Source: a virus | DNA length: 37,268 nt | Virus record (IMG/VR): IMGVR_UViG_3300031857_000583 | Span: 1-37,268 of that record | Direction: 5' to 3' (one strand) | In this document: positions 3,537 through 37,268 of the stretch, in pieces | Layout: each line of letters opens with the position of its first letter | Position numbering within the stretch: position 1 is the first letter of the stretch | The notes under the pieces: model-generated | Database searches by the model: none | Seen by the model: only the letters and a program-made list of their open reading frames with translations | Told to the model about the DNA's origin: nothing | Position numbers and translations under genes: made by a program

Positions 3537-6292
3537 TGGCAGACCAAAAGTTATCGGCATTAACAGCAGCATCAAACGCAGCAGAATCAGATGATTTATA
3601 CCTTGTTACTGATACTACTACTTCACCTACTTCAAAGAAAATAAGTTTTAATAATCTACAGACTTCATTTACAAACATATCGCTTGATTCAGCACAATTT
3701 GATGTAACAAACACCACTTTACCGGTAGAAGGTCAAGTTGCTTACAACGCAACTGACGCTAACCTTAAACTTGGTCTTGCCGGTGGTAATGTTCAAGTTG
3801 CTTTAGGTCAGGAGTTAGTCCTACCAAAAAGAGTTAGAAACGAAAGTGGAACTACAATGACAAAAGGAACTATTGTTTATATTTCCGGAGTTAATGGAAA
3901 CACCCCACTTATATCAAGAGCATTAGCATCATCAGATGCAACATCTGCATTTACAATCGGATTTGTTGCCGAAGATATATCAAATAATGCTAACGGTTGG
4001 GTTGTAACAAATGGTGTTATTTCAGGTCTTAATTTATCTTCATACACTGCCGGACAAACTTTATATTTATCAGGAACAACTGCAGGAGAATTTACATCAA
4101 CTAAACCATCAGCACCAATTCACATGGTAAGAGTTGGAATAGTTACTAAAGCAACAGCAAGTGGAGAACTAATTGTTGTTATACAAAATGGTTTTGAACT
4201 TGAAGAACTACATAATGTTTCTATAGTTGGTGTTGGTAACGGAGATTTAATACAATACGAATCATCTACAAGTTTATGGAAAAATGTTCCATTAAACACA
4301 ATTAACGGTGCTTATCTAAAATTAGATTTATCTAATATCCCACTTACAGGAACAAACCTAACATTTGATGGGGCATCTAACAAAGTTATTGATGTTAATA
4401 GAAGCACAGTAACAGTTGGTAGAAGTTTAGATATAAAAGCAGGTGCAGCAATACAAAATGGAACAAACCTTGCCGGTGGAAATTTGATTTTAAGGTCAGG
4501 AGTAGCGACAGGAAGTGGAAGTTCTGACATACAGTTTTGGACTACAACTGCCGGTTCATCAGGAACTGTAGATAGATTACAAACACAAAAAATGGTTATC
4601 AAAGGTTCAGGTAGAGTAGGTATTGGAAATTTGAATCCAACATATACTTTAGATGTTACCGGTGCAGGAAGATTTACAGGTTCATTACAAGCATTAAATG
4701 TAGCAGGAACTAACACCGGAGATAACTCACAAGCATTTTATGGAAACGGTGCTGATGGAATTATTTACATGGATGGTTCTAATTACAATGTCCCTTACAT
4801 GACTTTTAATGGAACTGATACTTACACATTAACAAGAGATATTTATGCCGAAGCACTTGTGTTATATCAATCAATAATTTTAGAAACAGCAGGATATAGA
4901 ATTTTTTGTAGAGATATTTTTCAATGTTATGGAACAGTTAGAAATAATGGTGGAAATGCTTCCGGTGCTACAGCAGGAACAGGTGCTACAGGTGGATTCT
5001 TCAAAGCAGGTGGAGCAGGTGCTGCCGGACTTGGAACAGGTTCTGCCGGTGCTAATGGAACTGCACAAGCAACACCTACAGCAAACACATGGGTAGGTGG
5101 ATTAGGTGGTAGGGGTGGTGCAGGTAGAGCAAGTGCTGCTACTTTTGAAGGTGGCATGATTACAACTACAAACTTAACTACACCTGCAAATTCAGATGGT
5201 GGAAGTCATATCACTTCAAACATTGTTAATTACTTAAATAAATTCGTAAATATTGGTGGAGCAAACCAACAAATGACTCCTTCAGTCGGTGGTGGTTCAG
5301 GTGCTAAATCAGCAACAGGAACTACTGCTACTTCCGGTGGTGGGGGTGGTGGTGGTGGAGTTGTTTTCGTTGCTGCTCCAAGTATAGATGGTGGTGGTTT
5401 AATTCAAGCAAATGGTGGTAATGGTGGCAATGCTTCAGGGACAGGTGGTTCATTTGGTGGTGGAGGTGGTGGTGGGGGTGGAATTGTAGTTTTATTATCT
5501 AAATTAAATGACACCGGAGTAGTTTATCCAACTGCACTTGGTGGGGCAGGTGGGTCGCCGGTTACAGGAACAAACGGAACTTATACAGTTGCAGTAGCAA
5601 ACGGAACAGCAACATCTACAACTACAGCATTAAACATTACACCAACAACACCTTTATCTAAAGGAAATATGTATATTGTTACTGTTCATTTACAAAAAAC
5701 AGGTGGAATTGGAACTTTATCTGTTAATTCAGTATATGGATACAATTTGAATTGGCAATTTGTAAATTCAGTTGATTTTAATACTACTGCATCTCCAACA
5801 AGAAGAATTGAAGTTTGGTATGCTTGGTATGATGCAACATTTACAGACCCTGATATTGCAGGTGATGAAAGCATAAGAATAGATTTATCTGAAGCACCAA
5901 CTGCTTCAAGAGTAATAGTAGATGAACTTCAAAATGTGGATTTAGGGACTATTGCGAACAATACTAATACAAACGCAGTAGATTCTGCTTTAACATTGTC
6001 AGTTACTTTAGGAACTGCACCAAGTGCCGGAAACACAGTTTATTCAGTATTTGGTAAAAGTAATAACATTGCTGCAGCAGCAGGTGCAGGTAACACTATA
6101 ATCAATAACCAATACACAGCAGCACCACCACTTGTTTCAGAAGTTTCAACAGCACAAACAACAAATGCTATTTCTCACGCAACTACAGCAGCAGCAATAG
6201 GTGGAATTAGTTTTGAAATAAATAAACCACCAACAGATGCTTCTAATGGTGGTGATGGATGGGATGGAAAGGTAATAAGATTGTATGGATAA
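3536..6292 (+). CDS. Tail fibre / adhesin with poly-glycine domain
   Basis: 918 residues. The N-terminus (KLSALTAASNAAESDDLYLV, then TTSPTSKKISFNNLQ) is the arrangement typical of the virion-attachment end of phage fibres. Around residue 365 is a GIGNLNPTYTLDVTG segment, also common in fibres. Residues about 475-675 are glycine-rich, with runs of eight to nine consecutive glycines separated by VVFVAAPSI and IVVLLSK strands. This resembles the poly-glycine II helical bundles of known phage adhesins. The C-terminal 200 residues are beta-rich. The start overlaps the previous stop as TAATG. Likely host-recognition protein. Confidence 0.75.
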   Translation: MADQKLSALTAASNAAESDDLYLVTDTTTSPTSKKISFNNLQTSFTNISLDSAQFDVTNTTLPVEGQVAYNATDANLKLGLAGGNVQVALGQELVLPKRVRNESGTTMTKGTIVYISGVNGNTPLISRALASSDATSAFTIGFVAEDISNNANGWVVTNGVISGLNLSSYTAGQTLYLSGTTAGEFTSTKPSAPIHMVRVGIVTKATASGELIVVIQNGFELEELHNVSIVGVGNGDLIQYESSTSLWKNVPLNTINGAYLKLDLSNIPLTGTNLTFDGASNKVIDVNRSTVTVGRSLDIKAGAAIQNGTNLAGGNLILRSGVATGSGSSDIQFWTTTAGSSGTVDRLQTQKMVIKGSGRVGIGNLNPTYTLDVTGAGRFTGSLQALNVAGTNTGDNSQAFYGNGADGIIYMDGSNYNVPYMTFNGTDTYTLTRDIYAEALVLYQSIILETAGYRIFCRDIFQCYGTVRNNGGNASGATAGTGATGGFFKAGGAGAAGLGTGSAGANGTAQATPTANTWVGGLGGRGGAGRASAATFEGGMITTTNLTTPANSDGGSHITSNIVNYLNKFVNIGGANQQMTPSVGGGSGAKSATGTTATSGGGGGGGGVVFVAAPSIDGGGLIQANGGNGGNASGTGGSFGGGGGGGGGIVVLLSKLNDTGVVYPTALGGAGGSPVTGTNGTYTVAVANGTATSTTTALNITPTTPLSKGNMYIVTVHLQKTGGIGTLSVNSVYGYNLNWQFVNSVDFNTTASPTRRIEVWYAWYDATFTDPDIAGDESIRIDLSEAPTASRVIVDELQNVDLGTIANNTNTNAVDSALTLSVTLGTAPSAGNTVYSVFGKSNNIAAAAGAGNTIINNQYTAAPPLVSEVSTAQTTNAISHATTAAAIGGISFEINKPPTDASNGGDGWDGKVIRLYG

Positions 6293-6494
6293 CGCAACTA
6301 AATGGGCAAATATTAAAAGCATGAGAAATCATTTATTATGTAATACTGATTGGTGTGTTTTACCTGATTCTCCTTTATCTGCAGAACTTTTAGATGCAGT
6401 TAAAATTTATAGACAAAAGTTAAGGGATATAACAAAAGATTTTGAAAATCCTGATGATGTCATTTTTCCTGATAATCCTTTAATAGGGGGTTAA
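6285..6494 (+). CDS. Tail fibre assembly chaperone-like protein
   Basis: 69 residues. The pattern of an Arg then LL, then D-W, P-D-S-P-L, a YRQKLRDI-like segment and a proline-rich end (here MRNHLLCNTDWCVLPDSPLS, IYRQKLRDI, FPDNP) matches the small phage tail-fibre chaperone family seen next to fibre genes in many phages. It overlaps the end of the fibre gene by 8 bases and precedes a second fibre, so it probably helps fold or trimerise one of them. Family recognition is by motif only. Confidence 0.6.
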   Translation: MDNATKWANIKSMRNHLLCNTDWCVLPDSPLSAELLDAVKIYRQKLRDITKDFENPDDVIFPDNPLIGG

Positions 6495-14300: not shown

Positions 14301-17300
14301 ATGACAGAGTGGGACAAACTAGTTTCAAATCAACCACAACCTACAACAACTCCAAAACCTACAGGAGTTCCTTCTAATCAACCTACACAAAATCAAGGTG
14401 AGTTTGATAAATTTTTTGAAGGAACAGGAATTGAACCAATAAAAAAAATAAGTCCAAAAATGACACCTGAACAATTTGGTGCAGCAGTAGGACAATCAGC
14501 AGCAGCAAATGTTCCACAAAAAGGTTTTCTTGAAAGTGCAGGTGATTGGTTAGGCAGTGCTTATAAAGGAGTTACATCTGCATTATTTGGCGAAGAACAA
14601 AATCAATTACAAGTAAAACAGGAAGAAATAGAACCAATCAAAAAAGAAGCAGAACGACTTAAAATAAGTATTCAAACAAATAAAAAAAATTTAGACCAAG
14701 AAAAAGTAGATTGGTATAACACTCAAATTGATAAATTTAACGATAAAGAAAAACAATTTATCAAAGATATGAGAGTTGATAATGTTGATAACCTTGAATC
14801 AAAACTTCTGAACGAAGTTTCAAAAAGAGAAACTTCATATTCTGAATTAGGTGGTGTAAGTAGGTCAAAGTTTTATCAAGAATTAGAAGCAAAAAGAAAA
14901 GATTTCAAAAATAGAAAAGAAATATTAGATATTTCAGAAAATAAAATTAAAGAAGTTACCGGAGAAAAACAAGCAAATAAAGGTTTTTTAGGTCAGATAA
15001 CTAATTGGGAAAATTGGAAACAAGAACTTGCAGTATTAAATCCATTATCAGTTTTAGATGGATTAACTGAAACAGAAGAACAAAAAAAAGTTAATGACAT
15101 ATTACAAAGAATAGCAAAAAACGAACCGGTTACACAAGCAGAAAGAGAACTTGCAGATTCTTTTTTAGCAGATGAATTAAATCAGTTAGTAGATAGGGGT
15201 ATTGGAACTCAAATTGCAAATGGTGTTGCCGTTACAACAGTATTTTTTATTGATGGTATTGCAACTTCTGCTATTGCTACACCGATTGGTGCTGCAGGTA
15301 AAAAACTAATACAAGGAACTAAACTTTATGGTAGGGCATCAAAATTTGTTAAAGGTGTAAAAATAGTAGGTGATGGTATTAACATTGCACTTAAAGTAGA
15401 AAAGAAAATCCCTGATAGATTAAAAAAAGAAGTTGTAAAAGAAACAGCACAAAATTTTGTTAAATTAAATCTTACAGGTCAGTTAGGTCTTGGTTCTTAC
15501 GCAAGACTTGATAGAGCAACTGCTGATTACATGTCCCCATCTATTGATTACGAAAATTGGTTAAAATCAGAAGGTAAAGATGGCGACATCTTAAATTATG
15601 TTAAAGGTGGAGATAACGAAATAGATGCTGCAAAAAAAGCAAGATTAGTTCAATTCGTTGAATCTTCATCCGAATCAGTTGGTTTTATTGTAGATGAACC
15701 CCTTAAATTCATGCAAAAGGCATTTGTTGGTAAGTGGTTAGCAAAAAGGGGAATCAATCCAAACGACACAGATGCAGTTCAAAAAGCACTTAAAACAGTA
15801 GGTATTAACTCAATTATTGCTGAAATTGGCGAAGAAGAATTTGGAGAACCATTTACTGCTTGGATTGAAGGCAGAACTTATAACGCACCATTTTTAACTC
15901 CGGAAGGAAACGAAAGATTACTTGTTTCCGGACTATCTATTGCTGCATTTAAGGGTCTTGCAAACATACCAAGTGCTTCAAAGAGAATCTTACTTGACCC
16001 TAAAGAAAAGAAAGTTGTAGCAAATGTTAATATTCCAAGCACTCCACCTACTAAACAAGACCTACAAGCAACTGCATCAGCACCGGTAGTAACTCCTTCT
16101 AAAGCAATTACAGGTCTTGCAGAAGATGTTTCACCACAAGTAAGACAAGCATTTGCACCTACTACAACTACAACTGAAGGGTTTGTTCAAGCACCACCTA
16201 TTCAACCAATGGTTACTCCGGAACAACCTGTTACAACTCCACAGGTTACCCCTACAACCACTCCGGAAACTAAACCAACAGTTACACCAACTCCTACAGA
16301 AACTCCTGCTAAAAAGACAATTAAACAGGTTAAAAAGGAAACTAAACCTGCAACTAAAGAACTACAAAGATTAAATACAGTTAAACAAGCAGCAATAGAT
16401 TTAGCAAATAAACAACAGGTGGGTGAAACACAAAAACAACAGACCATCAAAGGAATTGGTATGGAGTATTCAGCAATTCAAAGGGGTCTTGAAGGCAAAC
16501 CTACAAGCAAAGAATTTTCTAATGAACAAAAGAGATTGAACTCAATGTATGTTGGAAAACCGGTAACTTACGAAGGCAAACCTGCAACTGTTGTTGCTAA
16601 TCCATTTGGTAATGTAAAGATTAAAACTCAAGATGGAAGAACTATCACTGTTGAAAGAGCAAAGGTTCAAGCAAAAGAAGCAACACAGCAAGAAGTTTTA
16701 GATTCTATAAAGCAAAATGCAGTTAAGAATCTTGAAGGTAAAGAGCAAATCTATCAGGAAAGAAAACAAGTTAAAGAAGAAGCACCTAAAAAGAAACTTG
16801 GTGAGAAGAAGGTTGAAAAAAAAGCAGAAGTAAAACCTACTAAAAAAATTGCTGAAAAAAAGGAAATTACCAAAAAACCTAAAACTAAAAAAGAAAAATC
16901 TGAAGAAAGAGTTAAACTAACTAAAGAAAGCATACTTAAATACTTAAAAGAAAAAGGAAGGGTTAAATACAGAGAACAAAACGCTTCGGATTTTTTCCCT
17001 GCTGACAATTACAGGTTTGACAGGATTGTTAAAAATACTAAAGCAAAGCAAACCCTTAAAGATAGATATACAGATTTAGTAGAAATTGCTTCTAATTTAC
17101 CTAATGACGCACAGATAAGCAGAATCCTATTAAGGTTAGATGCTTTAATAATTTCTATAAATGATGGGATATCTGAATCACAAGCAATAACAAGAGCAGA
17201 CAAAATAATCACAACTTACGGTAAATATAAATACAAAAAATTATACAAATACCTTAAAGGTAGGGATGCAAAATTTAGAACAGGTTTAACCGAATTTCCT

Positions 17301-20300
17301 GATAAAAATTTTGATGTTCTAAAAAGTAAGTTTTTTGAAATAAAAGATTTTATTGGCAAAGAATTTTTAACTAAAGGAAACATTGAAAATATTCTTAAAA
17401 AATCAGGTGGAAGTGGTGTAACTGAATTTGAAAAAAACATAATCCAAGATGTATTAGATATGGATTTTGCAAATGAGAAAAACATAAACATTGAAGATTT
17501 AAGAAAAGCAGTTATTACAAGGTTTTTACCATTAGATATTGTTGAGTTACGAAGTAATGATTTTGAATTTACAGATTCAGGTATAGGTGAATTAGGTTTA
17601 GATGGAGAAAATATTACACTCGCATTTAACTCAACATTTGCACACAATTTACAAGGTGATGGTTACCACATTGAAGATAGGCACATAAAATCAAGTATAG
17701 GAAAAATGGGTGGTAAGTATGGAAATGGGATTTTTGGACATGTCAGGTTAGTAATAGTTGATAACGAAGATGGAACAAAAAGTGCTTACATAGTTGAAAT
17801 TCAATCCGACCCATTTCAAAAAGCAAGAAACAAAGAAACAGGTCAGTGGTATATCGGAACAAAAGCAGAATATACCGAAGCATTAAGAAATAAAGAAGAA
17901 GCAGAAGGAGAAATTGCTGCTTCCGAATCATACATAAAACAAATGAAATTGGACATTGCAGGTCTTGATGTCTTTTATGAAGGAGAAATTAAAAAAGTAA
18001 AAGATTTAATTGATAACTATATTCCAAGCAAATTAAATGAACTTACTGAAGAAGAAAGACAAGGTGAAAAAGGAAAAGAATTATATTTAACTTTAGAAAG
18101 AGCAAAAAAAGAATTACAAAGACAAGAAGAAAAAGTTCAAATTAAATATTCAGAAACAGAGATTGAAAGAGCAAACATTAGAATTGAAGAACAAAAGAAA
18201 AGAATAGAAAAATTAAATAAGGAAATTCCAAAACTTGAAAAAAAAGCAGAATCCAAAGAAGAAAAAGCATTTTTTGCATACAAAGATGATTGGTATAAAC
18301 GACTTATTAAAGAAACAATAAGACATTTGGCAGTTAATTATGATGTAAAAGATATAAGTTTTGCACAACCTGCTACAGCAGCAACTGTTGAAGGTCATTA
18401 CAATATTTACGATTTCCCACCTTACGAGAAAAATTTTAATAGAAATATAGAAGAAGTTGAAATTGGTGATGAACTTACTCTTGATTCAGATAGGAGAAAT
18501 AACTACACAGTTGTTAAAGTTGAAAATGAAGATAGTGATGGTAATGAATTGTATAAAAAAACCTTTTATGCAGTTAAAAATGACGATTTAATGAAACTAA
18601 CTTATGACGAAGCACGAAAAGAAATAGAAGATGAATTTTGGTATGAAGATTACGAACAACCTTATAAATATGAAATAGAACCCTTTTTTGATGTTCAGAC
18701 AGTTGATGATGTTGCAGATATTCTTGAAACAGAAAATATTGCAAACGATTACTACGATTATCTTCAATCAGAAAACAACGCTGCAAGAGTAAGAGCAGAA
18801 ATTAAAAGAAATAAAGAAGAAACTGATAATAAAATAAATAACCTAAATAAAAAAATTGATAGATATGAAAAAACTCTTAAACTACTAACTCCTGAAAATA
18901 TAAAAAAGTTTAATCTACATATAGACCTAATGAAGGGTGTTCCATACCCTTATGGTTTTACTTCAATAAAAGATGAAGAAAGAAAAAATTTTGTTGAACT
19001 TATAGCAAGTAACACAAGTGATGCTACAGGTTACGAAAGAGCATCTATAGATTCTGAACTTCAAAGGATGATATTTCAGGGGCAAACTTATGCTTCTTGG
19101 AAAGAAGATGCTGAACAAAAAGTTACTATCTATGATGTAAATGACATGGTAGATAAAATGAAAAATTTTATTACTGACCGATTAGAAAGCGAAAAAGAAG
19201 AAAGAAGTGATTTAGTAAGTGATTCAAAGCGATACGAACAAAGACAAGAAGATTTAGTAAAAATGTATTCTCAAAAATTTGAGAAAGGATTTTCAAAACA
19301 AAAACTTGATAAATTGCCAATTAAATTAAAAGAAAATTTAGAAAGCAGTGCTGATAGAAGCATGTTCAGAAATGCAGGAACTTTAAGATTAGATTACAAA
19401 TTAAGAGAGTTTCTAAAAGAAGTTGTTGCAAAAAACAAAGGCACAGACAAATTTGATTTAGACAAATTCAAAGAAAAATATTTAGAAAAACAAGATTTAG
19501 ATATTGAATATGAGTTAATGAACAAATATGGGGACAGGAGTGTATTTTATGACCCTAATGCCAATATGTTTTACATAAACGAAGGTGATTCAAATGACAT
19601 GGAAGAATTAGCACAACCTGATTACTACCCAATGATGAGAGATGGGAAAACCCCAAACATAAAAGGAATTAAAAACAGAGATGAAGAAGAAGGCACAAGA
19701 TTAGCAGGAGTAACAATATTTTACGACACAAAAATTAGAAATTTCTTAAAATCTTTAAGAAAAGGAAATTTAGAAGAATCTATAGATGGAGATTTTTATT
19801 ATTGGACAACCCAAGTTACTGAAGAAGATAAACAAAAATTTTATGCTTACAGGTTAAGAGATGACATGGAAAAACTTGGTTATTCCATTACTCCACAACA
19901 AGAAAAAGAAATTATTAAATTATCAAAGATGATTTTCGGTGATGCAAATGTTCAATTTGTGCAACAAATTATTGCTAATAACAAAGCACTTGGTTTTCAT
20001 TACAAAGACATGATTACTATTTTAAGTGGTCAAGCAAGTCCTACCGACACCTTTTTACATGAAGCAGTTCATAGATACATAGATGTGTTTATGACAACTA
20101 ACGAAAAAATAGATTTATTTATGGAAGCATCTGAAAGGTATAAATCTACTGATTTTGCATACATAGAAGAAATGGTTGCAGAAGATTTTATAAGATACGC
20201 AAACGCAAGAATTGCAAAAAGAAGGTCTTTTGTTGGTAGATTAAAAGAATTTTTTGAAAAGTTATTTAATAGAACTCAAAGTTATATTGATAATAAAGAT

Positions 20301-21077
20301 GCAGTTGATAAGTTGTTTAACGATATTATTAGTGGTAAAGCAAAAAAAATAAAAGCAGAAAGAGAACAAGCAAAGAAAAAAACCACAAAACTTGGTCAGA
20401 AGAAAGCAGCACAAGCACCACCGGAGAAAAAGAAACTTGGTGCTAAAAAGATGCCAAAAGTAGAAGCACCTGCTGAAACAGTTGGTGGTGGTAGGGTCAA
20501 AAAATCAAGATTCATGGAAAGATTAAACGAACAACTGCTAGGAACTAATCCGGAAGCATTTGGATTTAACGAAGCAGATGGAACATATAACCAAGCAAAC
20601 CTTGATAGAGAGTCAGAAAAGGCAATCAACTTTATAGAAGCAGACCCTATGAGAGCATTAAACATTGCACTTGGTAATGAATCAGCACCTGCCGGATACC
20701 TTGAAAACACTATTGAAGTAGCAGTAGCATTAAGACTTAAACAACTTGGTAATTTAGATTTATACAAGCAGGTCTTGGTTAGAAACTCCCTAAAGAACAC
20801 AAGAAGGGGTCAAGAGATTGCATCTTTAAGGGGTCAATTTAACGATAACAGTGCAGAAAACTATATTAAAAGAGCATTAGATGCAAGACTTAACAGATTA
20901 GGCGATAAATTTGCCGGTGGATTAGGCGAAAGAGCAATAATGTTAGGACTTAAAAAGTCAAATAAAAAAGAAGTATTTGAAAGAATACAAAAAGAGAAAG
21001 TAGAATTAAAGAAGGTTATCAAAGATGCCAAAAAAATTAAATCGGCACAAGACATCATTGATAGTTTAAGGTGTTAA
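14301..21077 (+). CDS. Giant polyvalent internal virion protein with zincin protease motif
   Basis: 2258 residues, the largest gene. Order: charged helices (1-290); a hydrophobic stretch (about 300-345, VAVTTVFFIDGIATSAIAT) and a GEEEFGEPF segment near 515 that may act at membranes; a Pro/Thr-rich linker (about 575-675); an SH3-like strand set (about 750-790, VGKPVTYEGKPATVV); a Lys-rich stretch; a FGHVRLVIVD...YIVEIQSD module (EIQSD at 1166-1170); long coiled coils; WYKRLIKETIRHLA and LAGVTIFYDTKIRNFLKSL blocks; and a zinc-metallopeptidase motif HEAVH at 1920-1924 with E1961 as possible third ligand. The EIQSD and FYD blocks recur in phage polyvalent proteins, giant polypeptides injected with the DNA. 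Expected to be ejected into the host; the cleavage target is unknown. Confidence 0.7.
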   Translation: MTEWDKLVSNQPQPTTTPKPTGVPSNQPTQNQGEFDKFFEGTGIEPIKKISPKMTPEQFGAAVGQSAAANVPQKGFLESAGDWLGSAYKGVTSALFGEEQNQLQVKQEEIEPIKKEAERLKISIQTNKKNLDQEKVDWYNTQIDKFNDKEKQFIKDMRVDNVDNLESKLLNEVSKRETSYSELGGVSRSKFYQELEAKRKDFKNRKEILDISENKIKEVTGEKQANKGFLGQITNWENWKQELAVLNPLSVLDGLTETEEQKKVNDILQRIAKNEPVTQAERELADSFLADELNQLVDRGIGTQIANGVAVTTVFFIDGIATSAIATPIGAAGKKLIQGTKLYGRASKFVKGVKIVGDGINIALKVEKKIPDRLKKEVVKETAQNFVKLNLTGQLGLGSYARLDRATADYMSPSIDYENWLKSEGKDGDILNYVKGGDNEIDAAKKARLVQFVESSSESVGFIVDEPLKFMQKAFVGKWLAKRGINPNDTDAVQKALKTVGINSIIAEIGEEEFGEPFTAWIEGRTYNAPFLTPEGNERLLVSGLSIAAFKGLANIPSASKRILLDPKEKKVVANVNIPSTPPTKQDLQATASAPVVTPSKAITGLAEDVSPQVRQAFAPTTTTTEGFVQAPPIQPMVTPEQPVTTPQVTPTTTPETKPTVTPTPTETPAKKTIKQVKKETKPATKELQRLNTVKQAAIDLANKQQVGETQKQQTIKGIGMEYSAIQRGLEGKPTSKEFSNEQKRLNSMYVGKPVTYEGKPATVVANPFGNVKIKTQDGRTITVERAKVQAKEATQQEVLDSIKQNAVKNLEGKEQIYQERKQVKEEAPKKKLGEKKVEKKAEVKPTKKIAEKKEITKKPKTKKEKSEERVKLTKESILKYLKEKGRVKYREQNASDFFPADNYRFDRIVKNTKAKQTLKDRYTDLVEIASNLPNDAQISRILLRLDALIISINDGISESQAITRADKIITTYGKYKYKKLYKYLKGRDAKFRTGLTEFPDKNFDVLKSKFFEIKDFIGKEFLTKGNIENILKKSGGSGVTEFEKNIIQDVLDMDFANEKNINIEDLRKAVITRFLPLDIVELRSNDFEFTDSGIGELGLDGENITLAFNSTFAHNLQGDGYHIEDRHIKSSIGKMGGKYGNGIFGHVRLVIVDNEDGTKSAYIVEIQSDPFQKARNKETGQWYIGTKAEYTEALRNKEEAEGEIAASESYIKQMKLDIAGLDVFYEGEIKKVKDLIDNYIPSKLNELTEEERQGEKGKELYLTLERAKKELQRQEEKVQIKYSETEIERANIRIEEQKKRIEKLNKEIPKLEKKAESKEEKAFFAYKDDWYKRLIKETIRHLAVNYDVKDISFAQPATAATVEGHYNIYDFPPYEKNFNRNIEEVEIGDELTLDSDRRNNYTVVKVENEDSDGNELYKKTFYAVKNDDLMKLTYDEARKEIEDEFWYEDYEQPYKYEIEPFFDVQTVDDVADILETENIANDYYDYLQSENNAARVRAEIKRNKEETDNKINNLNKKIDRYEKTLKLLTPENIKKFNLHIDLMKGVPYPYGFTSIKDEERKNFVELIASNTSDATGYERASIDSELQRMIFQGQTYASWKEDAEQKVTIYDVNDMVDKMKNFITDRLESEKEERSDLVSDSKRYEQRQEDLVKMYSQKFEKGFSKQKLDKLPIKLKENLESSADRSMFRNAGTLRLDYKLREFLKEVVAKNKGTDKFDLDKFKEKYLEKQDLDIEYELMNKYGDRSVFYDPNANMFYINEGDSNDMEELAQPDYYPMMRDGKTPNIKGIKNRDEEEGTRLAGVTIFYDTKIRNFLKSLRKGNLEESIDGDFYYWTTQVTEEDKQKFYAYRLRDDMEKLGYSITPQQEKEIIKLSKMIFGDANVQFVQQIIANNKALGFHYKDMITILSGQASPTDTFLHEAVHRYIDVFMTTNEKIDLFMEASERYKSTDFAYIEEMVAEDFIRYANARIAKRRSFVGRLKEFFEKLFNRTQSYIDNKDAVDKLFNDIISGKAKKIKAEREQAKKKTTKLGQKKAAQAPPEKKKLGAKKMPKVEAPAETVGGGRVKKSRFMERLNEQLLGTNPEAFGFNEADGTYNQANLDRESEKAINFIEADPMRALNIALGNESAPAGYLENTIEVAVALRLKQLGNLDLYKQVLVRNSLKNTRRGQEIASLRGQFNDNSAENYIKRALDARLNRLGDKFAGGLGERAIMLGLKKSNKKEVFERIQKEKVELKKVIKDAKKIKSAQDIIDSLRC

Positions 21078-25446: not shown

Positions 25447-25485
25447 TTGACATACAAACTTACTTATGATAATATACAATAAGTA
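25447..25485 (+). promoter_or_regulatory. Promoter P5 with TACTNAT-N11-ATNAGTA operator
   Basis: Perfect TTGACA (25447-25452), 17 bases, TAATAT (25470-25475). Operator arms TACTTAT (25461-25467) and ATAAGTA (25479-25485), 11 bases apart, are centred on the -10 box. A 20-base stretch (25457-25476) is identical to promoter P6 at 27218-27237. A leader with AGGAAGG precedes ATG 25509. Confidence 0.75.
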
Positions 25486-26891: not shown

Positions 26892-27219
26892 AGAACAATT
26901 TAATAACCTTCCTAAATCACAAGGTGATTACCTTCCGGAAGAAGAAACAGTAATCCATACTGCTTTATACATAGCAGAAAGTGGATGGACTTTTTACATT
27001 GCTGAATTTGATTCAGAAAAAGAAGAACTATTTGGTTTTGTTAATGGACTTGAACAAGAGTGGAGATACTACACACTTTACGAGTTAAACGAAATTATAG
27101 AAGGTGGTTGGCAAATGGTATTTGATACTTACTTCCAACCCCAAAAGTTTTCAGAACTAAAACCTACAATTAAACCTTTAATAGAACGAGATTCTGAAGG
27201 TAATATGATTGACATATAA
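26875..27219 (+). CDS. Hypothetical protein
   Basis: 114 residues, not recognised. Starts inside the previous gene at ATG 26875; an upstream TTG at 26848 is possible but less likely. Contains LPEEETVIHTALYIAESGW, FYIAEFDSEKEELFGFVNG and a Trp-rich centre (EQEWRYYTLYELNEIIEGG). The pattern EEETVIHTALYIA with later W and YYTL resembles small YodL-like or DUF-type phage proteins, but no firm family is claimed. Promoter P6 begins within its last 11 bases. Confidence 0.5.
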   Translation: MNLLNKEQFNNLPKSQGDYLPEEETVIHTALYIAESGWTFYIAEFDSEKEELFGFVNGLEQEWRYYTLYELNEIIEGGWQMVFDTYFQPQKFSELKPTIKPLIERDSEGNMIDI

Positions 27220-28599: not shown

Positions 28600-28690
28600 C
28601 AATCATCTTAATCCATGATTGTTAATTTTTTAGTCCTAATCCTATAAGTCCCACAGACTCCACAGGGTTAGGACTAAAAAGTTTCATTAA
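28600..28690 (+). ncRNA. Candidate structured RNA A (two hairpins)
   Basis: Hairpin 1: CAATCAT / ATGATTG (28600-28606 / 28615-28621), followed by a TTAATTTTTT run that could itself act as a weak terminator. Hairpin 2: a 17-base-pair stem with one wobble, 28627-28643 pairing with 28664-28680, and a 20-base loop with a small AGTC/GACT inner stem. The segment TATAAGTCCCAC (28643-28654), mostly in this loop, is perfectly complementary to GTGGGACTTATA at 32624-32635 in RNA B. No ORF covers this region. It may be an independent small RNA or the 5' leader of the gene at 28738; the 3' end cannot be fixed. Confidence 0.5.
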
Positions 28691-30090: not shown

Positions 30091-30583
30091 AATAGCATCA
30101 AGTAAAGGCAGACCTACTTCCCATGAAGTTAGATATAAAAGTGTTGGTAGAAAACCTATTATTACCCCTGAAGTTGTTGCGATTTTGGAAGAAGCATTTC
30201 TTATAGGTCATACTGACGCCGAAGCATGTTTAATTGCAAACATTGACCGTTCAACATTTTATAGATACATTGAGAAAAATCCGGAATTTGCTACAAGGAA
30301 GGAAGAATTAAAAGAGAATCAGTTCGCAATCGCAAGAAGAACGCTGATGAAGGGTGTTAAAGAGAATCCGGAATTGGCATTAAAATTCCTTGAGAGAAAG
30401 AAAAAAGCAGAGTTTGGGGTCAAGACCGAAGTTGATTTAACTACCGGTGGAAAACCTATTACAGGGTTTAATTATGTATTACCAAGTCAAGTTATAGAAG
30501 GGGAGATTGCAGATGAATCCAACACTGAAACCAACGCTGAAACAACACCAAGCATTTCAGATTCTGCAGGACAAACAAACTAA
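30065..30583 (+). CDS. terS: Terminase small subunit
   Basis: 172 residues. A helix-turn-helix lies at about residues 50-75 (HTDAEACLIANIDRSTFYRY), followed by a long helix (KEELKENQFAIARRTLMKG) and ALKFLERKKKAEFGVK, the typical layout of phage small terminases that bind the packaging site. The tail (QVIEGEIADESNTET) is acidic and may contact the large subunit. ATG 30065 lies in the previous gene without a clear ribosome site, so translation is probably coupled. The large subunit gene overlaps its end by 71 bases. Confidence 0.8.
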   Translation: MKNTTIKDKIASSKGRPTSHEVRYKSVGRKPIITPEVVAILEEAFLIGHTDAEACLIANIDRSTFYRYIEKNPEFATRKEELKENQFAIARRTLMKGVKENPELALKFLERKKKAEFGVKTEVDLTTGGKPITGFNYVLPSQVIEGEIADESNTETNAETTPSISDSAGQTN

Positions 30584-31958
30584 CTTCCTATTATTTGGTG
30601 GTGCTGCCGGTGGGGGTAAGTCATGGATTGGTTGCGAGTGGTTACTGACTAACTGCTACCTATATCCTAATACAAGGTGGTTTATAGCAAGAAAAGAGTT
30701 AAAAAGACTCATGGCATCCACTTATCAAACATGGGTTAAGGTTACAAGGCATCACAATATTCCGGCAAATGATTGGACATTAAATTCACAGATGCACTAT
30801 ATTCAATTTGCTAATGGTTCAAGAATTGACTTACTTGATGTCGCTTACCAACCTTCAGACCCTGAATACGAAAGACTTGGTTCTATTGAATTTACAGGTG
30901 GGTTTGGAGAAGAAGTAGGAGAGTGGGACTTCAAAGCATTTGATACCCTTAAATCAAGGATTGGTAGGCAATTAAACACAGAGTATGGACTAACTCCACC
31001 TAAATTCTTTTTAACATGTAACCCTACAAGGAATTGGGTCTATAAAGTCTTTTACGAACCATATAAGAACGGTAACCTTCCGGCAAACTATAAGTTCATC
31101 CAATCGTTATACAAAGATAATCCACACACAGCAGATATTTATGCACAACAACTTGAAACAATCAGTGATGCTACTTTAAGAGCAAGGTTAAGAGATGGAC
31201 TATGGGAATACACCACTGATGACTTGGCAATCTTTAACTATTCAGCAGTGTTAGACTTATTTACCAATCGCTTGGAAGATTCAAAAGATAAATATTTCAG
31301 TGCTGATATTGCAAGGTTTGGTTCAGACAAAATAGTCTATGGGGTATGGCGTGGCATGAACTTAATTAGATTAGAAGATAGAAACAAACAGTCTATTATG
31401 CAAACTGAAAATGATATTAGGGACATGCTTCATAAAGAGTTTATACCGTTCAAAAATGCCATTATAGACGAAGATGGAGTAGGGGGTGGGGTGTTAGACC
31501 ATTTGGAAGGAATTAACGGTTTTATGGGTGGTAGGAGTCCGTTATCCAAAAGTGAAGATGTGCGAACTAATATCACCAATGCACCGGCAAATTACATTAC
31601 CAAACCTAACTACAAGAACCTACGAAGTCAGTGTTACTTCCTTCTTGCTGACGCCGTTAATAACAGAAGGGTCAGTATTACAGCACCGGTCAGTGAAGAA
31701 GTTAAATATAAAATCATAGAAGAATTGATGCAAATAAAAAGAGTTGATACCGGCACTGATGCACCACTTCAAATCATACCCAAAGAAGATATAAAAGAAA
31801 ACATTGGAAGGTCGCCGGATTATGCTGATACTCTCATGATGCGTATGTATTTTGTAGCAGCAATCCCTGATACTTCGCATGACTTTTATATGCCACCTGC
31901 AGAGTATTTACAGCAAAAAGGAGTAACAAATCCATTTGGTGGAATTGGATGGAACTAA
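30513..31958 (+). CDS. terL: Terminase large subunit (packaging ATPase and nuclease)
   Basis: 481 residues. Walker A GAAGGGKS at 30-37; Walker B region FTGGFGEE at 127-134; coupling motif TCNP near 168. The C-terminal RNase-H-like nuclease has acidic residues at D265 (SADIARFGSDK), D319/D321 (IIDEDGVGGG) and D436/D439 (SPDYADTLMM). It packages DNA into the procapsid through the portal and cuts it. ATG 30513 is chosen because AAGGGGAG lies about 8 bases upstream; the TTG at 30507 sits too close to that site. The 71-base overlap with terS suggests coupling. Confidence 0.93.
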   Translation: MNPTLKPTLKQHQAFQILQDKQTNFLLFGGAAGGGKSWIGCEWLLTNCYLYPNTRWFIARKELKRLMASTYQTWVKVTRHHNIPANDWTLNSQMHYIQFANGSRIDLLDVAYQPSDPEYERLGSIEFTGGFGEEVGEWDFKAFDTLKSRIGRQLNTEYGLTPPKFFLTCNPTRNWVYKVFYEPYKNGNLPANYKFIQSLYKDNPHTADIYAQQLETISDATLRARLRDGLWEYTTDDLAIFNYSAVLDLFTNRLEDSKDKYFSADIARFGSDKIVYGVWRGMNLIRLEDRNKQSIMQTENDIRDMLHKEFIPFKNAIIDEDGVGGGVLDHLEGINGFMGGRSPLSKSEDVRTNITNAPANYITKPNYKNLRSQCYFLLADAVNNRRVSITAPVSEEVKYKIIEELMQIKRVDTGTDAPLQIIPKEDIKENIGRSPDYADTLMMRMYFVAAIPDTSHDFYMPPAEYLQQKGVTNPFGGIGWN

Positions 31959-31959
31959 T

Positions 31960-32589
31960 ATGGCACAACTAAACGCTAACATACCGTATATACAATGCTT
32001 TATCAGGAAGGAATACACCGGATACGAAGAACATCTTGAAGGATATATTTTTGGAGTTAAATCCATGCTTAATAGACCTATGCACTTTCATTTCTTATCA
32101 AGAATCGGTGCTATCTTTTGGAACATGCCAATAAGTGCATTTGCTCATAAAGAAGATTTTGACCCATTATCTGATGACGAACAAAAAAGATTATCACTTC
32201 TTCAGACTTGGGATTGCCAATCAAACAATATAGCAGTAACTACATTTGCTTTCCTACAAAACAAAAGGGTAGATGTTCATTGCAGAGATGGGGTTTGGAG
32301 AAGTGGAACTTATCTATTTACCATTGATGATTACGAAGGCGACCTAAACGAACTCAATGTAGGATATTCAAACGACCAAGATTCTAAATGCTATCAGTTT
32401 ATAGTGCTTGATGACGGTAACTTCTGCATCCCACCTAATAATCTTTTGAGATGGCATAATCCGGACTTTATAGTTCCTTATGACCAAACAAATGTGCCAA
32501 GACTCAAAGTATTCAAAGAACAACTAACAAGTGAAGATATTGATAGAAGTTATGGCAATTCCCCATATTTCTTTTACCAAGCATCTTGA
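31960..32589 (+). CDS. Conserved-looking hypothetical protein between terminase and portal
   Basis: 209 residues, not recognised. Contains paired aromatic/His segments (NRPMHFHFLSRIGAIFWNMP), DPLSDDEQKRLSLLQTWDCQ, a beta-rich centre (VDVHCRDGVWRSGTYLF) and an RWHNPDFIVPY segment. ATG 31960 is one base after the terL stop; the TTG at 31936 inside terL is unlikely. Its last four bases overlap the start of promoter P12. Position suggests a packaging or head role, without direct evidence. Confidence 0.6.
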   Translation: MAQLNANIPYIQCFIRKEYTGYEEHLEGYIFGVKSMLNRPMHFHFLSRIGAIFWNMPISAFAHKEDFDPLSDDEQKRLSLLQTWDCQSNNIAVTTFAFLQNKRVDVHCRDGVWRSGTYLFTIDDYEGDLNELNVGYSNDQDSKCYQFIVLDDGNFCIPPNNLLRWHNPDFIVPYDQTNVPRLKVFKEQLTSEDIDRSYGNSPYFFYQAS

Positions 32590-32613
32590 ACTTATATTTA
32601 GATTTAGTATTAT
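32586..32613 (+). promoter_or_regulatory. Promoter P12 for structured RNA B
   Basis: TTGAAC (32586-32591), 16 bases, TATTAT (32608-32613). The predicted start is at 32620-32621, exactly where the first hairpin of the non-coding region begins. Promoter P8 has the same layout (TTGAAT-16-TATAAT with start at a hairpin base). Confidence 0.5.
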
Positions 32614-32619
32614 TGATTT

Positions 32620-32900
32620 AGTCGTGGGACTTATAAGAAGTCGGAGTGCGACAATAAAGAAATTCTGATTCGCTATACTTGGGCATCAGGGACATACACT
32701 TAACGATTAGGCAAGAGAAATACCAAGAGCAAGGACATAATGGAGAAGGTGCATTGAACCTAACAGATTCTTCTCCCACTTACTAACCATGTAGGTCTGA
32801 TGTGATAGGTAATATAACTCCAAGAGAAAATGGAACACAGTTATATTTATATGAACCTAGTAATGGGGGATTATAGGGGGACTAACTCCCTTAAACACCT
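32620..32900 (+). ncRNA. Candidate structured RNA B in a 427-base non-coding gap
   Basis: The gap 32590-33016 holds no convincing gene. It has five foldable hairpins in order: 32621-32652 (GTCGTG/TGCGAC outer, GACTT/AAGTC inner); 32663-32691 (TTCTGAT/ATCAGGG with wobbles); 32742-32776 (GGAGAAG/CTTCTCC); 32806-32859 (AATATAACT/AGTTATATT, nine perfect pairs, with outer TAGGT/ACCTA); and 32875-32891 (AGGGGG/CTCCCT). GTGGGACTTATA in hairpin 1 (32624-32635) is perfectly complementary to the loop of RNA A at 28643-28654. No terminator with a T-run was seen, so the 3' end is a guess. The rest of the gap to 32980 is AT-rich without clear structure. Confidence 0.55.
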
Positions 32901-32981
32901 TAACACCACTTTACAACTTTAACCCAACCACTAACTTGAAGTAACAAATAAATTTACCAAAGATACTGCACAAATTACAAC

Positions 32982-33010
32982 TTGATAAAAATTAAATTGA
33001 TACATACAAT
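32982..33010 (+). promoter_or_regulatory. Promoter for the leaderless portal gene
   Basis: TTGATA (32982-32987), 17 bases, TACAAT (33005-33010), then six bases to ATG 33017. No ribosome site is present between. Same -10 to ATG distance as at 130, 9137, 12357 and 23373. Confidence 0.6.
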
Positions 33011-33016
33011 TTCATT

Positions 33017-34795
33017 ATGGACAAAGAATATAAACAGTTTGTTGATGCCGATATTGAATCAATCAAACAAGATAAACAATCGGCATTTAAGTTCAAAGAA
33101 AGAAGATTAGTAGATTGGGATGATAACTACCTTCTTTATAGGGACAAAGTAGTAACCAACAGACTTATTCAAAGACAATCGGTAAATGTGCCACTCATGA
33201 AGTATGCAATCAATACAATCATGAAGGACTTGAACGAAACCCCACAACTATATTTCAAGAATTTAGATAATAAAGAAGAACAAGAGATTTACTTCAATGA
33301 ATTTTGGAAGGAGTGTGCTGACAGAAATAACATAGACCAACTTGCTGAAGTTGATAGAAAACAAGCATTACTTTTTGGGCGAAGTTTTAAGAAGTTAAAT
33401 ATTGAATACGGCAAAATCACAATGGAAGTTATAGACCCAAGAGATATGCTCGTTGATAGATTTGTTAATCCGGTAAATTTTGACGGTGCAAGATTTATCA
33501 TGCAGACCGGAATCTACAGAACTTTAGAAGATATACTAAACAACGAAGAATATGATGAAAAAGGTAAAGAACAATTACGAATCCATTACGCAAATAAAGA
33601 CCAAACATTAGCACAAGACACAACTTACGAATACAACACTGATAGAGATAGAAGGTTTGCAACTATGGGAGTTATGGATGCTTATACTCCAACTGTTAGT
33701 GCTATGACTATTGAACTTAATGAAGTTTATAAATATGAGTATTGCGAAGAACACAAGAAAAACTTGATATTTGTTTATGTTGTAGCAGTCGCTGATTCTT
33801 CTTATTATAAGTTATACAAGGCAAGACTTTATGAGTTACTTGGAGAAACTGAAGATGATTTTTGGCACGACCATTTCCCTTATACTTCATGGGCAACTGA
33901 CATTGAAAGAACTGACTTTTGGTCAGACGGTGCAGGAGATGTTATTAGAACACCAAACAAGATTGTAAATTCATGGATGTCCCAACTTGTTGAGAACAGA
34001 CAACTCCGAAACTACGGCATGACTTACTACAATGCAACCAATCCTAACTTCGTTCCACAGACTTATACACCACAACCATTTGGATTCTATCCGGTTGCCG
34101 GTAATCCTAATGAAGTTATGATGCCGGTTGAGATTCCGGACTTATCTGAATCTTTAGATGAGATTCAATATGTTGTAGGACTTGCTGAAAAGGCAACAGC
34201 AGCAACAGCAACTCAACAAGGAGTAGTTGAAAAACAAGCAGTAACTTTAGGTGAAGTTCAATTAGCGTTAGCAAATGCTCAACAAAGAGTTGAATCAATT
34301 CAGAAGTTTATTGACCAAGATTGGAAAGATTTAGGTGAGAAATTTGCCAAATTAACTAAATCAGCAGTAGATTCACTTGTTCCGGTGCTTGTTACTAAAA
34401 ATGGTAAAAAGGGACTACAAATCTACACAAGAGAAATTACAACCAAAGATTTCAAAAACAAAATGGGTTACCAAGTTGAAGTCCAAATGCTTAAAGACAA
34501 GCAACAACAAGATATTGATAACATCCAAAAACTACAGGCAGCAGTTGGAATCATGCCAAATAACCAACCACTACAAGAAATTTATAAAAGACATCTATTA
34601 CAATTTGCCGGACTTACTCCGGAAGAAATATCACAGGTGGAAGAATTTGAAGAACAAGGTGCAGAACCTGAACCAACACTTGGTCTTGATACATCAAACG
34701 CTATAGAAGGGGAAATCATGCAGGAAGATATGCCACAAATGATGGCATTACCACAAGGCGAAATACCATCCATGCCGGATTTAACAGGAAGATAA
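33017..34795 (+). CDS. Portal protein
   Basis: 592 residues, the usual size of podovirus portals. Characteristic stretches: NVPLMKYAINTIMKDLNETP, QALLFGRSFKKLNIEYGKI, MEVIDPRDMLVDRFVNP and GARFIMQTGIYRTLEDI, then a wing region and long C-terminal helices (GEVQLALANAQQRVESIQKF) that form the crown, with an acidic, Met-rich tail. Twelve copies form the ring through which DNA enters and leaves the capsid. It has no Shine-Dalgarno and an upstream promoter that predicts a leaderless mRNA, unusual for an abundant structural gene. Confidence 0.9.
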   Translation: MDKEYKQFVDADIESIKQDKQSAFKFKERRLVDWDDNYLLYRDKVVTNRLIQRQSVNVPLMKYAINTIMKDLNETPQLYFKNLDNKEEQEIYFNEFWKECADRNNIDQLAEVDRKQALLFGRSFKKLNIEYGKITMEVIDPRDMLVDRFVNPVNFDGARFIMQTGIYRTLEDILNNEEYDEKGKEQLRIHYANKDQTLAQDTTYEYNTDRDRRFATMGVMDAYTPTVSAMTIELNEVYKYEYCEEHKKNLIFVYVVAVADSSYYKLYKARLYELLGETEDDFWHDHFPYTSWATDIERTDFWSDGAGDVIRTPNKIVNSWMSQLVENRQLRNYGMTYYNATNPNFVPQTYTPQPFGFYPVAGNPNEVMMPVEIPDLSESLDEIQYVVGLAEKATAATATQQGVVEKQAVTLGEVQLALANAQQRVESIQKFIDQDWKDLGEKFAKLTKSAVDSLVPVLVTKNGKKGLQIYTREITTKDFKNKMGYQVEVQMLKDKQQQDIDNIQKLQAAVGIMPNNQPLQEIYKRHLLQFAGLTPEEISQVEEFEEQGAEPEPTLGLDTSNAIEGEIMQEDMPQMMALPQGEIPSMPDLTGR

Positions 34796-36944: not shown

Positions 36945-37205
36945 TTGGGACACTTACCTAAAGAAGTCCGGTATTCCATACTTGAAAGGGATGGTTTCCA
37001 ATGTAAATTTTGCAGTCGTGGTGGCAAGACTTCAGACTACATCTTGGAAGTCCATCACATTGTATGGAGAAGATTTGGGGGAACAGACCGACCGGACAAT
37101 TTGCTTACGGTTTGCCCCTATTGCCATGACTTGATTCATTATGGGAACTATACCGGCAGACCGGTAACCTTCACAGAACTCAAGAAACGGCAGGGTGGGA
37201 AGTGA
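36945..37205 (+). CDS. HNH endonuclease
   Basis: 86 residues. Zinc-binding pairs C20-x2-C23 and C57-x2-C60 frame the HNH core: E35-V-H37-H38, N52 and H61/H65. TTG 36945 is the first possible start, since an in-frame TAG lies directly before it. Phage HNH enzymes near the terminase often take part in packaging cleavage; a homing role is an alternative. The gene's end crosses into the terminal repeat. Translation is probably coupled to the preceding gene. Confidence 0.88.
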   Translation: MGHLPKEVRYSILERDGFQCKFCSRGGKTSDYILEVHHIVWRRFGGTDRPDNLLTVCPYCHDLIHYGNYTGRPVTFTELKKRQGGK

Positions 37206-37220
37206 AATATCTTCTCACCC

Positions 37221-37250
37221 TTGACTAAACACAAATTTATTACTTATAAT
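37221..37250 (+). promoter_or_regulatory. Right-end copy of the leaderless promoter
   Basis: TTGACT (37221-37226), 18 bases, TATAAT (37245-37250); second copy of the promoter at 94-123. Confidence 0.75.
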
Positions 37251-37256
37251 CTATAC

Positions 37257-37268
37257 ATGGATTCCAAA
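37257..37268 (+). CDS. First codons of the small gene (partial, duplicate of 130-351)
   Basis: ATG GAT TCC AAA, the first four codons of the gene complete at 130-351, cut by the window edge. Confidence 0.8.

Follow-up and report, generated by a model that had tools for sequence, protein, structure and literature searches.

Evidence for a conserved structured RNA upstream of a phage portal gene, a candidate non-coding moron

Accessory phage genes have been catalogued mostly as proteins. The morons of lambdoid phages, extra transcription units with their own promoter that are inserted between genes adjacent in relatives, are known mainly as protein genes with a terminator, and the packaging RNA of phi29 is a phage RNA encoded near packaging functions. 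The element reported here, a predicted RNA of about 270 nt, lies 5' of the portal gene in IMG/VR record IMGVR_UViG_3300031857_000583, of which positions 1 to 37,268 (one strand) were analysed; this whole 37,268-nt stretch is called the window below. Like a lambdoid moron, the element separates two genes that adjoin each other in relatives, and it would be an extra transcription unit with a putative promoter of its own, but it has neither an ORF nor a recognised terminator. It shares with the phi29 packaging RNA a position beside packaging genes, but it matches no Rfam family and is missing in close relatives that have related motor genes.

According to PMC12286853, GOLLD and ROOL are phage-encoded structured RNAs of unknown function that are frequently located close to tRNA islands, with many of the GOLLD RNAs longer than 800 nt; the present element is likewise a structured phage RNA, whereas it measures only about 270 nt, belongs to a phage without tRNA genes and has no Rfam match. 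The OOP RNA of lambdoid phages is described as antisense to the cII gene (PMC12197685). If the lead at 28643 described below is right, the element would resemble it by pairing with an RNA from its own phage, with the difference that the possible target lies some 4 kb off and the complementarity is short. In the literature searched, represented mostly by titles and abstract openings, no RNA at a terminase-portal junction was described, and we put the element forward as a candidate for a new family of phage RNAs, one that Rfam does not contain and that would be carried as a non-coding moron.

The non-coding gap of 427 bases claimed by the first-pass annotation was confirmed at 32590-33016, and it was the largest of 11 gaps of more than 60 bases between ORFs taken as genes. 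The same annotation had placed it between terminase and portal, of which only the portal stood. The large terminase was located at 30507-31958 (PHROG_2, E 3.8e-31), and directly 5' of the gap there is a 217-aa ORF (31936-32589) matching PHROG_3704 (label ferredoxin, E 7.2e-41); in the relative L002 the RNA directly follows the terminase, with no PHROG_3704 gene between. In cyanophage and pelagiphage records the protein encoded by 31936-32589 is annotated as PurM / phosphoribosylaminoimidazole synthetase or as hypothetical, and both the ferredoxin and the PurM-type names look doubtful, because the ORF has no Pfam match. Downstream, the 592-aa product of 33017..34795 (+ strand) matched no PHROG or Pfam profile; its identification as the portal protein is supported by an AlphaFold model (mean pLDDT 72, built from a 21-sequence alignment), because the best PDB matches of this model by Foldseek were phage portals, with that of SU10 at the top (E 1.2e-14). 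A 141-base direct repeat with a single mismatch at the two ends of the record (1-141 and 37128-37268) suggests that the genome is complete, about 37.1 kb in size and either circular or terminally redundant. Nearly one fifth of this genome is taken up by a single ORF (14301-21077, 2258 residues) with no Pfam match.

Folding of the gap as a single sequence gave an energy equal to chance (-73.8, with shuffles averaging -73.5; z -0.05). The first-pass annotation had described the gap as packed with hairpins; the one with nine perfect pairs was found, its arms AATATAACT and AGTTATATT lying at 32811-32819 and 32839-32847, but the hairpin count alone was not significant. The evidence came from comparison of the window with six IMG/VR contigs carrying the region and a close portal relative, which together amounted to four distinct versions (window = L001 = L006; L002; L003; L004 = L005). 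Folding of the four with RNAalifold yielded -38.0 kcal/mol, against -16.0 (sd 3.6) for shuffles that preserve the conservation pattern of each column (z -6.1, 0/300), and when any single version was dropped the value was still reached by none of 150 shuffles. The reverse strand gave a far weaker signal (z -2.8, 2/300 shuffles), two 300-base stretches of the portal gene used as controls gave z values of -0.23 and +0.58, and the final 111 bases of the gap showed no structure signal in this comparison. Among 44 curated pairs, 94.9% of the cells were paired and 13 pairs carried compensatory changes, a number matched by 0/500 shuffles and counted on four distinct sequences, in the alignment from which the structure had itself been drawn.

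Open reading frames of at least 25 aa did not coincide among the four versions on either strand. Absence of covariation, or a conserved small ORF, had been named in the first-pass annotation as grounds for abandoning its reading; the 13 of 44 compensatory pairs and the RNAalifold z of -6.1 speak for covariation, and no small ORF was common to the four versions. The search against Rfam that it had proposed was also run: no family of Rfam 15 (4227 families, which we take to include GOLLD, ROOL, pRNA, introns, 6S and RNase P) matched at its curated score anywhere in the window, and between 32500 and 33100 just two matches appeared at E up to 10, both far under their curated scores. With no tRNA or tmRNA gene detected in the window by ARAGORN, its statement that the element is not a tRNA, group I intron, GOLLD or ROOL agrees with these searches. 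The gap very probably holds a genuine conserved structured RNA of about 270 nt on the + strand (32620..32890), comprising helices P1 to P6 and a G-rich 3' part.

The clearest helices are P1, P5 and P6. P1 (32621-32625 with 32648-32652, span 32621..32652, + strand as all the parts described here) was paired in 100% of the cells, with GTCG/CGAC replaced by TTGG/CCAA in L004, and encloses P1a (32628-32632 with 32638-32642), which is broken in L003. The motif GTGGGACTTATAAGAA (32624..32639), identical in the four distinct versions, is with 16 bases the longest invariant block; P1a fails as the reason for its conservation, because L003 keeps the motif with the P1a partner strand changed. P2 (32670-32673 with 32683-32686) is weak, with 81% of the cells paired and no compensatory change, and P3 (32699-32702 with 32708-32711) shows compensatory changes in 3 of its 4 pairs; the stretch comprising both (32670..32711) is the one in which the window and L002 differ most. 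P4, formed by GGAGAAGG with TCTTCTCC around a 19-base loop (32742..32776), was paired in 97% of the cells and has one both-sides change. In P5 (32778..32796), ACTTAC with GTAGGT gives way to CACTGT/ACAGTG among the versions, and 4 of the 6 pairs have compensatory changes. P6 (32811..32847), to which the nine-pair hairpin belongs, consists of a lower stem (32811-32818 with 32840-32847) and an upper stem (32819-32822 with 32831-32834) separated by a 5-base bulge on the 3' side, and was paired in 100% of the cells, with compensatory changes in 3 of 12 pairs. The G-rich 3' part GGGGGATTATAGGGGGACTAAC (32865..32886), in which GGGGGACTAAC is invariant in the alignment, has no well-kept pairing partner among the four versions. 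A helix placed within it by RNAalifold was dropped as poorly kept among the versions. A pairing between the two ends of the RNA, TTAGTC (5') with GACTAA (3'), was also dropped, being broken in L004 by eye.

A portal profile retrieved 75 loci, of which 6 were the carriers. For 67 of the 69 non-carriers (two omitted) the gene order upstream was tabulated, 3 of the 67 being without an upstream ORF in the available DNA. Four states of the junction were found: empty in L046 and L047, where terminase and portal are 35 bases apart with no RNA; gene only in L048, where the PHROG_3704 gene (90% identical) is followed by the portal 42 bases on, with no RNA; RNA only in L002; and both gene and RNA in the window, L003 and L004. 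Because these four states occur, the comparison indicates that the PHROG_3704 gene and the RNA have been gained or lost separately in one slot. The spacings of 35 and 42 bases also mean that, as with morons, the genes flanking the insert are adjacent in insert-free relatives; an intrinsic terminator of its own, another moron feature, was not found. Direct repeats of 74% identity flanking the cassette were dropped as a feature, being absent by eye from the other versions. The RNA is single-copy in the window genome.

The RNA has diverged more than the neighbouring portal gene. It was 64%, 85% and 76% identical between the window and L003, L002 and L004, respectively, against 92%, 98% and 87% for portal bases 1-600, and the linker between RNA and portal was poorly conserved (39-74% identity). 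The L002 RNA is moreover a mosaic: around 32651-32711 it is nearer L004, and around 32751-32791 it matches the window exactly. Such fast divergence with mosaicism would be less expected of a fixed packaging component than of a part under pressure to diversify or to be exchanged. Taken as a whole, the observations are best explained, by a modest balance of probability, by an accessory RNA gene, a 'non-coding moron' that would probably act in trans. If this is true, a quickly diverging RNA that comes and goes near packaging genes while its fold is kept would show that non-coding RNAs are traded like protein genes. This one is small enough for probing and deletion, and it offers a defined motif as well as a candidate target.

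Under the proposed mechanism the RNA would be transcribed as its own unit from a promoter at 32586..32613, its transcript would end within the C-rich linker, and what it acts on, in trans, would be either a second RNA or a factor of the host; action in trans is judged slightly the better bet. One form of this action would be pairing of GTGGGACTTATAAGAA with a leader hairpin in the transcript of gene 28738, altering the use of that transcript. The hairpin (28624..28683, + strand) presents at its loop TATAAGTCCCAC (28643-28654), which pairs with GTGGGACTTATAAGAA and lies 3' of a TTGAAT/TATAAT promoter-like site and 5' of gene 28738, itself without a profile match. Outside the RNA itself, the window contains no 12-base complement of the RNA other than TATAAGTCCCAC; the match is weak alone, because for the RNA as a whole chance would give about one of this length. 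In an energy scan of the window the 28643 site ranked first (-21.3 kcal/mol, with opposite-strand controls reaching -19.2). In G004, which carries the RNA in its L004 form and differs from the window beyond the promoter common to both, the corresponding stretch contains TAAGTCCCA, a 9-base complement (found in 236/20000 shuffles of the stretch), and the site ranked second among distinct sites (-15.8 vs -16.1, opposite-strand controls reaching -18.9). The invariant motif is partly paired in the predicted folds. No such site follows the homologous upstream gene in the RNA-less G006, but a different gene is found there too. The 28643 site is a candidate lead, which we regard as tentative and rather unlikely to prove the target.

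The RNA may instead be aimed at a host factor or host defence, as a decoy or inhibitor, and not at a phage transcript. Accessory spread, fast divergence and mosaic exchange all fit an arms race, but the 28643 complement would then be a coincidence; the odds are against this alternative.

Both promoter-like sites announced by the first-pass annotation, TTGAAC-16-TATTAT for the RNA (32586..32613, + strand, predicted start near 32620 at the foot of P1) and a separate one for the portal, TTGATA-17-TACAAT (32982..33010, + strand, 6-8 bases before the ATG), were present. All four versions share TTGAA, the 16-base spacing and TATTAT, with a spacer of varying sequence, and the hexamers are present in L002, which has no PHROG_3704 gene upstream. 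A promoter scan gave 3 sites vs 2.9 expected from shuffles, the RNA promoter site thus not being above chance. Before the portal, TTGxxx-17-TACAAT was found in all six sequences tested, including the RNA-less L047 and L048. No intrinsic terminator was found after the RNA, which is followed by a C-rich, G-poor linker (32887..32979, + strand; C:G 26:4, 25:9, 30:15 and 24:10 in the four versions). Factor-dependent termination in this linker is possible and would fit its excess of C over G, seen in each of the four versions; across the window, a C/G bias this extreme occurs in 126 of 37198 stretches. The RNA is likely to form its own transcription unit, and the earlier reading of an independent RNA gene, put there at roughly 280-380 nt, gains support from the covariation, the lack of a common ORF and the separate conserved promoter-like sites.

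Elsewhere in the window, TTGACA-18-TATTATTGA precedes the major head protein gene (1187-1220), is kept in the L003 contig and shares its -10 element with the RNA promoter. The early-region TTGAC/TATAAT-like promoters at 25447, 27209, 27737 and 23339 share motifs around -10, and at 27209 an inverted repeat made up of ACTTACTTA and TAAGTAAGT may be the operator of a repressor. Promoters of the Bacteroidota type were considered and dropped, the early promoters resembling TTGACA/TATAAT.

The location of the RNA directly 5' of the portal gene, on the same strand and with no terminator between, would also suit a cis-acting leader or attenuator, that is, a 5' untranslated region timing or limiting portal synthesis. 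This is improbable, because the portal has its own promoter, conserved even where the RNA is absent (L047 and L048); the intervening linker is poorly conserved, and relatives do without the RNA. A packaging RNA, or a DNA packaging site, that aids the packaging motor or flags the genome to the terminase was suggested by the terminase and portal neighbourhood, but we hold it to be very unlikely: the RNA is missing at the junction in L046 and L047 (66% terminase and 67% portal identity), models R1 and R2 detected no copy elsewhere in the L046-L048 records beyond weak matches, the structure signal favours the RNA + strand over the - strand, and no Rfam family matched. That there is no RNA at all, and that an AT-rich spacer owes its apparent structure to the small number of sequences (four distinct ones, with an ordinary single-sequence fold energy), is very unlikely against a signal seen in none of the shuffles and in neither portal control, several helices with compensatory changes, and long invariant blocks amid 64% identity.

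To the accessory RNA gene favoured here, searches for further carriers added none with confidence. Motif patterns run on viral contigs each recovered the 6 carriers, the remainder being attributed to chance for GTGGGACTTATAAGAA (11 stretches, 5 by chance), ACTCCRAGAGANAAYGGAA (8, 2 by chance), GGGACTTATAAGN{50,80}AAGAGAAA (8, 2 by chance) and CTGATGTNAN{6,22}ACTCCNAGAGA (11, 5 by chance), and consisting of 10 others among 16 stretches for CAGTN{14,40}GGGGN{3,9}GGGGGACTAAC. One of these 10, L157, resembled the G-rich 3' end alone (12.3 bits), which was taken as chance. On its minus strand, near 384-434, there is a perfect 11-base-pair hairpin followed by GTTAGGGGGGGACTAAC, similar to the 3' end of the RNA; this resemblance is probably a coincidence, because that same pattern had retrieved L157.

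In bacterial genomes, GGGACTTATAAGN{50,80}AAGAGAAA gave 16 stretches with no true match, and a terminase scan gave 20 stretches with no relative. The sequence model R1 found the 4 carriers given to it among 50 virus records, plus one 11-bit match taken as chance, and in two overlapping samples of 395 Bacteroidota genomes each it found 4 distinct matches of 20-22 bits (L145-L148), of which L146 and L147 fell inside ORFs and L148 was absent on repeat at E 0.1. The structured models R2 and R3 found none in 148 and 296 genomes, an empty result that is uninformative as it had no positive control. No match stood out in the sampled Bacteroidota genomes, which may be the wrong group of hosts.

A possible distant relative was found in the phage G043, whose terminase is 56% identical, as a full-length R2 match between the lysis and methyltransferase genes (L163:1402-1620, model match G043:C1:4972-5149; 27.2 bits, E 1.4e-5 for that record). 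The match is intergenic and has P4, P5, the CUGAU linker and P6 with its 3' bulge in the same order, with a P1-like stem upstream; such stems arise in 223/1000 shuffles. A match of 23.3 bits in an open frame of L125 sets the noise level against the 27.2 bits of L163, and a short motif common to L163 and the RNA occurred in 5/2000 shuffles, having been picked after inspection. L163 gave no match when the 5' domain of the RNA served as a sequence profile, Rfam gave none, and the L163 element was found nowhere else among the examined loci or phage or plasmid records beyond chance. Its 86.5 bits with R3 are circular, R3 having been built including L163; in 80 virus records, apart from the L003 record and this circular G043 match, R3 gave nothing above 17.8 bits.

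The chances that L163 is a distant relative of the window RNA appear about even. A broader proposal, in which the RNA would be a mobile non-coding moron of a class that moves between phages and sites, with a diverged copy by the methyltransferase gene in G043, and would regulate an unlinked transcript of its own phage through the 16-base motif and the leader hairpin, has a low probability in our estimate. In G043 the DNA methyltransferase gene itself (L169:5124-6758) is split in two ORFs around an HNH endonuclease ORF (5899-6426), an arrangement that resembles an intron or homing insertion.
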